A stretch of DNA of 64,000 nucleotides from Terriglobales bacterium (GTDB taxonomy: Bacteria; Acidobacteriota; Terriglobia; Bryobacterales; Bryobacteraceae): contig JAIXQP010000037.1 of NCBI GenBank assembly GCA_027485675.1, positions 62,001 to 126,000 of the forward strand. The letters are read 5' to 3'. The translations under genes and the position numbers were made by a program. Below, one piece after another: positions 50,992-53,094 of the stretch. How positions within the stretch are numbered: the first letter of the stretch is position 1; every line of letters begins with the position of its first letter. The notes beneath the pieces are model-generated. The model was not told where the DNA came from and searched no databases. It was given only the letters and a program-made list of their open reading frames with translations.

Positions 50992-53094
50992 TTAGTCGCC
51001 GAACGAGCCGACTTCTTTGTCCGCCTTGGGGGCAGCCGGTTTGATGCCGCCGAGCGCGTCCAGCGGAACGAATCCGCCTTCCGGCTTGGGCTGCTTCAGG
51101 ATGTGCTCGCGATAGAGCTTCTCCATCTGCGCATTCTTGGCGGCGTCTTTCAACTTCTCATCGCGGGCGCGGATCTTCTCTTCGCGGGCGTTCTTGGCGA
51201 TGCCCACGTCGTCGAGGTCGTGCTGCTTACCACGCGCCACGTCTTCAGCATTGAGCTTCAGCTTGTGGTTGGCGTCGGCCATGTTGACCTTCTTGTTACC
51301 GGCGAAGATTTCGTGACGGCCGTGCTCTTCATACCACTTGGTGAGCGTGGCGGTCATGTGCATCTTCTCGATGATGTTCCGCCAGCCGACGCCCGTGTTG
51401 TAGGCGCAGAAGGAGATTTCGCCTTCCTGGGTGGCGTAGGGGATGATGCACTGTTCGGTACGGCGGAAGTCGTAGTTGAACAGGTCCTGGAACCACATGC
51501 CGGCGATGAAGAGGAAGTTCCAACGGTCGCGGCGGCGCTTCTCGATGTCGTCCATGGTGCGGTCGCCGGTCACCTTGCCGTAGTTGCGGCCGGTGGCGCC
51601 GAAGCACTTGTCGAACTTCTGCAGCAGGTCAAGCAGGCGGAAGTGGGTGGGGGCGTTGAAGGGCTGGTAGTTGCGGAGCAGCGCCAGCGAGACGCCAACC
51701 ACGGACCAGAACTTGCTGCGGGCCGCGTCGTTGACCTTGGCGATGTCCTTGGCCAGACGGTCCGCGTTCAGGAACCCGGTCACCGGCTTGGCTTCCTTGG
51801 TTTCCTTGTCGATCATCAGCGCCATGCCGATGCCGCAGTTCGGGTGGCAGCCGCAGGAGAGCTGGCCCCAATCGGCGTTCGGTCCATGGACCAGGTCGGC
51901 CCAATCGGAGAACGTGGACATGAAGGAGATGGGGAACCAGTCGCGGACGGGTTCACCGAGGCCAACCTGATTCTTCACGTCATGCGCGAGGTGGGAGAGC
52001 GTGTAGCGCTGGGCGGCACGCCGTTCCGGGGTTACCTCTTCGTCGCGGCCCGTGAAGGAGACCGGCTGGAAGGAGAGGAACGAGATGATCTTCGGGTTGT
52101 CGAGGGCGAAGCGGATGACCGCGCCGACCTGCTCATTATTGATACCGTTGATGATCGTGATGACGGGGACGATGTCGACGCCCGCGTTGTGCAGGTTGGT
52201 GATCGCCTTCAGCTTAACGTCGAACAGGTTGCCGACCAGGCGGTGCGAATTGGCTTCGTTGCCGATACCGTCGAACTGGAGGTAGGCGTAGCGGAGACCG
52301 GCTTCGGCGGCCTGCTTACAGAACTCGGTGCTCTTGGCGAACTCGATACCGTTGGTCGCGGCCTGCACGGAGTTGTAACCAACCTTGCGGGCGTAGCGGA
52401 CGGCGTCGAGGAAGTAGGGGGACAGGGTGGGCTCGCCACCAGAGAACTGCACCGACATCTGGCGGCGCGGCTTGATGCTGATGGCGTTGTCCAGCATCGT
52501 CTTGATCTCTTCCCAGTTCAGTTCGTGGACGAAGCCGACTTGGTTCGCGTCCATGAAGCAGGGATCGCACATCATGTTGCAGCGGTTGGTGAGGTCGATG
52601 GTCAGCACCGAGCCACGGCCGTGGGTGATGGTGGACGAACCGTGATTGTGCAGCTTCTCGTCGTTGTGGGCGCGGATGTCGCGGCCGGGGAACACGTCTT
52701 CGAGGTGCTGCGAGAAGGCCGGGTCGATCGACATCAAGTCTTCAAACTTGCCGTGGATCGGGCACTCCTTCACCATCAGGATCTTGCCATCCCGCTCGAT
52801 GATGTCCGCCTTGATTTCGCCGATCTTCTCGTTCAAGAGGACGGAGACGTCCTTCTTGCCGTCGAGAACCTCTTTCCGCAGCTCCGGCACGCACTTGGGG
52901 CACAGGGAGTCGGTCTTGCGCGGCCAGCCCAGTGGCGGCTTGGACTTCTCCCAGCTCTTCAGCAGGGGCTTGTCCGACCACTTGGGGGTGAAGGACGGAT
53001 TGGGGTTGATCCGGTTCAGGCGTTCAAAGACCTGCCAGGCAACGTTCGCGGTGACCGTGACGGCCTTCTCAACGTACTTAATGGGCTTGTGCAT
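50992..53094 (-). CDS. Radical SAM protein resembling tetraether/membrane-spanning lipid synthases
   Basis: The protein has 700 residues from ATG 53094. An N-terminal metal site is suggested by C65-P-K-C68 and C111-P-I-H114-G; the radical SAM cluster is C172-x3-C176-x2-C179 (RCNMMCDPCF), with GGEP at 219-222. A Cys-rich region SCGCHPNCGIGMALM lies near 400 and EQCIIPYA with SFCAYNTGVGWRN near 560-585. The order rubredoxin-like site, CPxHG, CxxxCxxC, then auxiliary Cys is that of Tes/MJ0619-type radical SAM enzymes that join lipid tails. Acidobacteria make such membrane-spanning lipids, so a lipid-joining role is plausible but not shown. The Lys-rich tail is low complexity. The longer frame to 53172 has no added domain. 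Confidence 0.65.
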   Translation of the reverse strand: MHKPIKYVEKAVTVTANVAWQVFERLNRINPNPSFTPKWSDKPLLKSWEKSKPPLGWPRKTDSLCPKCVPELRKEVLDGKKDVSVLLNEKIGEIKADIIERDGKILMVKECPIHGKFEDLMSIDPAFSQHLEDVFPGRDIRAHNDEKLHNHGSSTITHGRGSVLTIDLTNRCNMMCDPCFMDANQVGFVHELNWEEIKTMLDNAISIKPRRQMSVQFSGGEPTLSPYFLDAVRYARKVGYNSVQAATNGIEFAKSTEFCKQAAEAGLRYAYLQFDGIGNEANSHRLVGNLFDVKLKAITNLHNAGVDIVPVITIINGINNEQVGAVIRFALDNPKIISFLSFQPVSFTGRDEEVTPERRAAQRYTLSHLAHDVKNQVGLGEPVRDWFPISFMSTFSDWADLVHGPNADWGQLSCGCHPNCGIGMALMIDKETKEAKPVTGFLNADRLAKDIAKVNDAARSKFWSVVGVSLALLRNYQPFNAPTHFRLLDLLQKFDKCFGATGRNYGKVTGDRTMDDIEKRRRDRWNFLFIAGMWFQDLFNYDFRRTEQCIIPYATQEGEISFCAYNTGVGWRNIIEKMHMTATLTKWYEEHGRHEIFAGNKKVNMADANHKLKLNAEDVARGKQHDLDDVGIAKNAREEKIRARDEKLKDAAKNAQMEKLYREHILKQPKPEGGFVPLDALGGIKPAAPKADKEVGSFGD

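Follow-up and report, generated by a model that had tools for sequence, protein, structure and literature searches.

The window, by which we mean the whole stretch of 64,000 nucleotides that was analysed, carries a minus-strand open reading frame running from an ATG at 53094 to a stop codon ending at 50992, which encodes a protein of 700 amino acids and has a longer alternative start at a TTG at 53172. The protein matches the Pfam families PF04055 (Radical_SAM, E 4e-18) and PF23545 (HMPTM zinc ribbon, E 3e-13, residues 58-122), aligns full-length with the GDGT-MAS of M. jannaschii (MJ0619; PDB 7tol and 7tom; E 7.1e-61) and covers positions 1-483 of the 486 in the NCBIfam profile of tetraether synthase (Tes, NF045702) with 311.8 bits (E 7.4e-93). 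It belongs to a branch that we call clade A, described below, and the features of the locus, all on the minus strand, are the following, with the equivalent MJ0619 residues given where they apply:

50992..53094, minus strand: coding sequence of a clade-A Tes-like radical SAM protein of 700 aa (open reading frame with Pfam, NCBIfam and PDB matches)
52753..52902, minus strand: rubredoxin/zinc-ribbon-like domain, C65-x2-C68 ... C111-x2-H114 (PF23545 at residues 58-122, and alignment)
52615..52662, minus strand: place of the lost cluster [Fe4S4]N, with H149-x-H151-G-x-S instead of MJ0619 C73/C77/C80/H83 (alignment)
52558..52581, minus strand: radical SAM cluster motif C172xxxC176xxC179 (Pfam and alignment)
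52429..52440, minus strand: GGEP, residues 219-222 (alignment)
52045..52068, minus strand: SAM-gating loop Q343...S346...R350, equivalent to MJ0619 Q268/S271/R275 (alignment; in 75/75 clade-A proteins)
51835..51855, minus strand: C414-x-C416...C420, with C420 equivalent to MJ0619 C338 (alignment)
51406..51498, minus strand: C-terminal auxiliary cluster region with M533 (M439), C549 (C455), Y553 (Y459) and C563 (C470) (alignment)
50995..51285, minus strand: C-terminal tail rich in Lys, Ala, Asp and Glu, approximately residues 604-700, poorly conserved and lacking in MJ0619
50925..50975, minus strand: hairpin resembling an intrinsic terminator, just past the stop codon (folding)

The minus strand at 50925-50975 folds as a 19-bp hairpin of -33.1 kcal/mol, a stability equalled by 0 of 200 shuffled sequences, and its position directly past the stop codon agrees with the earlier note, made from the letters of this DNA, which had credited the gene with a terminator of its own; a consensus terminator scan did not list this hairpin among its predictions. 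The same note had described the gene as standing alone with no partner, and this held across the window and a further 20 loci, each of 20 kb, where a search among open reading frames of at least 80 aa found no partner gene shared across families. The groups of reading frames that did span several families at those loci were the gene itself, overlapping shadow frames and one spurious link, and the recurring neighbours of the clade-A gene were confined to genomes of the same family. The idea of an operon was rejected on the absence of cross-family neighbours in this set. Upstream of the gene, at 53272-53757 on the minus strand of the window, lies a reading frame of 161 aa with no Pfam match at E 0.001. 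An AlphaFold2 model of the 700-aa protein from single sequence input reached a pLDDT of 35.2 and a pTM of 0.24, too low for the model to be of use.

The metal sites were compared using ligand positions of MJ0619 taken from passages of PMC9433317 and transferred by alignment, and residues were counted in 75 clade-A proteins, including that of the window, and in 21 proteins of a second type, B, from the fetched loci, all of which come from places scoring 472-619 bits on the Tes profile and thus above its curated cut-off of 450 bits. The first motifs of the protein, C65-P-K-C68 and C111-P-I-H114-G, make up at motif level a putative rubredoxin-type metal site of the form C-x2-C ... C-x2-H, whose cysteines are found in 75/75 and whose histidine is found in 74/75 clade-A proteins; C111 and H114 align with C33 and H36 of MJ0619, and C65 and C68 are matched by motif only to C9 and C12, which the alignment to 7tol does not reach. 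Both the radical SAM CxxxCxxC and the SAM-gating residues of MJ0619 are kept, in 75/75 clade-A proteins. The region of the C-terminal [Fe4S4], with the equivalents of the labile Met439 and of Tyr459, is likewise kept, as C420, M533, C549 and C563 occur in 75/75 clade-A proteins and Y553 in 74/75. The reading of C338, C455 and C470 as the cysteine ligands of this cluster is our own putative assignment from the alignment, the passages of PMC9433317 at hand naming Met439 alone. The ligands of [Fe4S4]N (C73, C77, C80 and H83), present in 21/21 B proteins, are absent from 75/75 clade-A proteins, which have at these positions a gap, a histidine, a serine and a variable residue, respectively. The 700-aa protein thus appears to keep all metal sites of MJ0619 but [Fe4S4]N, three out of four.

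All motifs on which the earlier note had built its assignment, namely CPKC, CPIHG, CxxxCxxC, GGEP and the later cysteines at 414/416/420 and 549/563, are present in the protein. That note had also held that missing auxiliary-cluster cysteines would speak against the assignment, and half of this is what the alignment gives, with the cysteines of the C-terminal cluster kept and the ligands of [Fe4S4]N gone. H149 and H151 are invariant in clade A (75/75), compared with a histidine at position 149 in 1/21 B proteins; C414 and C416 are also invariant in clade A, compared with cysteine at these positions in 3/21 and 14/21 B proteins, respectively. Together, H149-x-H151 and C414-x-C416, invariant in 75/75 clade-A proteins, possibly form a new metal site. 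In the clade-A alignment, residues 601-700 hold one near-invariant position.

The earlier note had placed the protein in the Tes/MJ0619 class, and this placement stood at the level of full-length homology and failed for Tes in the strict sense. Among the profiles compared, the best family was Tes; other radical SAM families (MoaA, NirJ and TrsS) matched weakly and mainly over the core. The radical SAM (seleno)protein family TrsS (NF045646) is a related outgroup having this core in common, but the match to it is partial, at 204 of 490 bits. Like Tes, the clade-A protein has the rubredoxin-type and radical SAM motifs, the SAM loop, the C-terminal cluster positions and the equivalent of Y459; unlike MJ0619, it is without the [Fe4S4]N ligands and has a three-residue insertion after the SAM loop and a tail of approximately 100 residues. 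Its 311.8 bits are below the Tes cut-off of 450 bits, and its identity to MJ0619 is 29.6% over 469 aligned positions. At least 450 bits on the Tes profile were reached in 27/199 genomes of the phylum draw and in 41/237 of the family, and by none of the listed clade-A proteins, whose identity to MJ0619 is 29-33%, versus 37-45% for B.

In two trees, clade A forms a single branch (support 100/100 in each) and is nested among the B-type proteins, its nearest neighbours being two proteins from family f4 and the protein of locus L088. B as a single clade was rejected by an AU test (p 0.007), which was chosen after the first tree had been inspected. Based on this nesting and this rejection, clade A seems to have branched off from within the Tes-type enzymes, to have changed fast and to have lost [Fe4S4]N. 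Its stem branch is very long (2.4-2.7 changes per column), so that its placement may suffer from long-branch error, and a stem of this length also allows for a change of function. We regard the 700-aa protein as real, intact and widespread, and as belonging to the tetraether synthase superfamily but falling outside Tes proper. More distant relatives from the phylum (loci L097, L098, L099, L100, L101 and L102) keep the cysteines of the N-terminal cluster; by NCBIfam score, L102 belongs to TrsS, and the others tested, L097 and L099, reach neither the TrsS nor the Tes cut-off.

By match strength, clade A is found in 93/199 genomes of the phylum draw and in 87/101 of the family draw, some of these matches being fragments from broken contigs. 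In the genus of the window, 15/19 listed genomes, among them its own, gave a match at E 1e-50, each of them at the strength of A, and in f2, the only further family marked 'same class', A is present in 19/19 genomes and B in 2. Among family genomes at least 90% complete, 6/83 have B without A and 3/83 have neither. The window's own genome has one full-length member of the family, of type A, and is without B; its next radical SAM matches cover the core only, with at most 52 bits. Calls of B in the family draw are P0002 matches of 33-40% identity, including fragments and excluding weaker TrsS-like ones.

As a marker of ether lipids we chose PF09989, a domain of PlsA/Ger-like ester-to-ether enzymes and also of other CoA-activase-like proteins. 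A search of the window's own genome found no PF09989. In the family draw, where related genomes are not independent, as in all of these co-occurrence counts, PF09989 was present in 36/36 B genomes versus 24/65 genomes without B (p 1e-11). Counting matches of at least 178 bits, it was present in 29/36 B genomes versus 1/65 others in the family draw and in 17/27 versus 7/172 in the phylum draw, a limit chosen after the scores were known, the count of any PF09989 being free of such a choice. The 178-bit limit replaced a 'short' type of PF09989 that had been sorted by eye with B status known and that occurred in 34/36 B genomes versus 1/65 others in the family draw and in 28/29 versus 1/47 at genus level. 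The exceptions are six B genomes of f4 that have no PF09989 at all. Between A and PF09989 there was no link in the family (p 0.39) or phylum draw (p 0.51), nor for the high-scoring PF09989 set (p 0.08), and 37/87 A-bearing family genomes are without PF09989. Of these genes, the one that is nearly constant is clade A, rather than B or the PF09989 ether gene; B tracks the PlsA/Ger-like ether-lipid gene and A does not.

Physical proximity of these genes was observed in a few genomes. Two species of genus g10 have a BcrAD+DUF2229 (PlsA/Ger-like) gene 52-67 nt upstream of A, and a further radical SAM gene, of approximately 355 aa, follows (L235:1935-7536 on the plus strand and L236:5499-11166 on the minus strand). 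A and B lie side by side, with the same orientation, in genomes G076 and G057 of the window's family (L068:5986-9867, minus strand; L069:5683-9584, plus strand), and are approximately 6 kb or less apart in G221 and G173.

Homologs of Tes in Acidobacteria have already been published. According to passages of Zeng et al. 2022 (PMC8941075), there are 456 bacterial Tes homologs, including those of Acidobacteria, for which synthesis of brGDGTs was proposed; the top two bacterial homologs are 40-42% identical to the Tes of M. acetivorans, Koribacter versatilis has a homolog at 42%, B-like by our measure, and Edaphobacter aggregans, a maker of iso-diabolic acid, has one homolog, 32% identical to that Tes. 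Given the identities to MJ0619 of 29-33% for A and 37-45% for B, the E. aggregans homolog looks A-type. Clade A thus very probably contains proteins of the E. aggregans kind, and B corresponds to the homologs of Koribacter and Solibacter at 40-42%. In its passages at hand, PMC8941075 treats the bacterial homologs as one group, and a division into two clades that differ in clusters and in gene partners does not feature there. In the open-licence PMC literature searched, with subscription papers outside, the A/B split, the lost cluster and the co-occurrence with Ger were not found, and passages of PMC11868695 and PMC10087280 regard the function of bacterial Tes as unproven.

Taken together, homology, residue conservation and the phyletic pattern (A in 87/101 family genomes and 19/19 of f2) support the reading that clade A is probably a membrane-associated enzyme coupling the tail ends of lipids, sp3 carbon to sp3 carbon, into iso-diabolic acid lipids, in which the substrate, the product and each chemical step are proposed by analogy with MJ0619. 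Passages of PMC9433317 describe two SAM-dependent hydrogen abstractions by MJ0619 and an intermediate in which the C-terminal cluster carries the chain bound through sulfur, and the positions involved in this mechanism are all kept in clade A. Clade A would work in the manner of Tes on ester-bound acyl chains of phospholipids, probably iso-C15, giving membrane-spanning lipids of iso-diabolic acid. SAM at C172/C176/C179 would yield a 5'-deoxyadenosyl radical, which would take a hydrogen from one chain end; the chain would be parked as a C-S intermediate on the C-terminal [Fe4S4] (C420, C549, C563 and the labile M533), and a second radical would attack this parked chain. In 17 cultures from subdivisions 1 and 3, iso-diabolic acid accounts for 20-40% of the fatty acids, according to passages of PMC13274423, and the formation of this acid is ascribed to 'a still unknown enzyme' in PMC10087280 (section 4.4). 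The clade-A gene is, judged from sequence, a good candidate for this enzyme of Acidobacteria. As the window's genome has a type-A gene as its only member of the Tes family and is without PF09989, the simplest substrate would be an iso-branched ester phospholipid and the simplest product iso-diabolic acid, and the absence of PF09989 makes branched GDGTs less likely than ester-bound iso-diabolic acid. The earlier note's proposal of a possible maker of membrane-spanning lipids, made with the iso-diabolic acid and branched GDGTs of Acidobacteria in view, survives as the likely role, with iso-diabolic acid as candidate product and branched GDGTs as the less likely one.

We put forward tentatively a more specific version, in which clade A would be a separate class of sp3-sp3 coupling enzymes for ester phospholipids, working with only two [Fe4S4] clusters rather than three and maybe having, in place of the lost one, a new metal site at H149/H151 and C414/C416, and would be the iso-diabolic acid synthase of Acidobacteria. 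In both versions there would be a division of labour, in which A would give ester-bound iso-diabolic acid, and B-type Tes with Ger would make branched tetraethers (branched GDGTs). Counter-cases to a simple division are Solibacter usitatus, which has two Tes homologs and makes branched GDGTs, its iso-diabolic acid being undetectable (PMC10087280, section 4.4), and K. versatilis, which makes iso-diabolic tetraesters according to passages of PMC13274423 and has a B-like homolog, so that B may also act on esters. Points against the coupling reading itself are the score below the Tes cut-off, the loss of [Fe4S4]N, the long stem and the genomes with B without A (6/83) or with neither (3/83).

It is unlikely that clade A couples diethers into branched GDGTs, acting on ether lipids as Tes does. 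The fold family common to clade A and Tes, the hypothesis for bacterial Tes homologs in passages of PMC8941075 and that for S. usitatus in PMC10087280, and the proximity of A to a PlsA/Ger-like gene (two species) and to B (four genomes) would all suit this product, but PF09989 is tracked by B and not by A, and is missing from the window's own genome and from 37/87 A-bearing family genomes. An improbable alternative is also that clade A is a radical enzyme acting on lipid tails with another outcome, such as chain methylation, cross-linking or cyclization. The long stem branch with its cluster loss and the four extra invariant residues (H149, H151, C414 and C416) are consistent with such a change, as is the occurrence of C5/C6-methylated iso-diabolic acids in Acidobacteria (PMC13274423, in part); against it, clade A retains all ligand positions of the C-terminal cluster and the tyrosine beside the coupled carbon, as an enzyme coupling C to C through that cluster should. 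We consider it very unlikely that the protein is an unrelated radical SAM enzyme acting outside lipids, since the matches to MoaA, NirJ and TrsS, weak as they are and with TrsS represented among the distant phylum relatives (L102), concern mainly the core, and the match to Tes spans profile positions 1-483 of 486 including the domain of the C-terminal cluster.

The only bacterial synthase of membrane-spanning lipids that has been proven is Mss of Thermotoga, according to passages of PMC11604127, PMC13274423 and PMC11868695. Mss is also a radical SAM enzyme, its products are of the diabolic type proposed for clade A, and models of it superpose on Tes (PMC13274423, in part), but that clade A is its acidobacterial ortholog is hardly tenable, because none of 61 Thermotogota genomes gave a full-length match to the 700-aa protein (29/61 had matches, to the radical SAM core only, the best at 48.5 bits), because the Tes profile at E 1e-50 matched three archaeal controls and not T. 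maritima, and because a possible Mss of 494 aa matches over 154 residues only, at 26% identity. Comparison with bacterial membrane-spanning lipid synthases, one of the checks named in the earlier note, thereby gave no kinship to Mss beyond the radical SAM core, as judged from the Thermotogota genomes. The 494-aa protein is one of a set of conserved radical SAM proteins of 491-499 aa in MAGs of Thermotogaceae and Fervidobacterium (L195:1177-2658, plus strand; also L192 and L197) with an amphipathic-looking N-terminus and three C-terminal cysteines, and our guess is that it may be Mss. In the phylum draw it matched at E <1e-60 in 13/199 genomes, none with clade A, with weaker matches (E 1e-38 to 1e-42) in two A genomes, and it had no match at E 1e-20 in the window's own genome.

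Branched GDGTs serve as palaeothermometers, and their makers and enzymes are described as poorly known in passages of PMC10087280 and PMC13274423. If A leads to iso-diabolic acid, and B with Ger to tetraethers, these two genes would sort genomes into those of 'ester precursor only' and those of 'tetraether', and would thus tell apart the organisms that make the ester precursor and those that make the climate biomarker. In addition, a coupling enzyme without [Fe4S4]N would, if true, show that the reaction can do without this cluster, whose role was left open by the passages of PMC9433317. Two clade-A paralogs, A and A2, approximately 50% identical, occur together in several genomes (L076, L077, L078, L080 and L081), and these pairs suggest two substrates or conditions.
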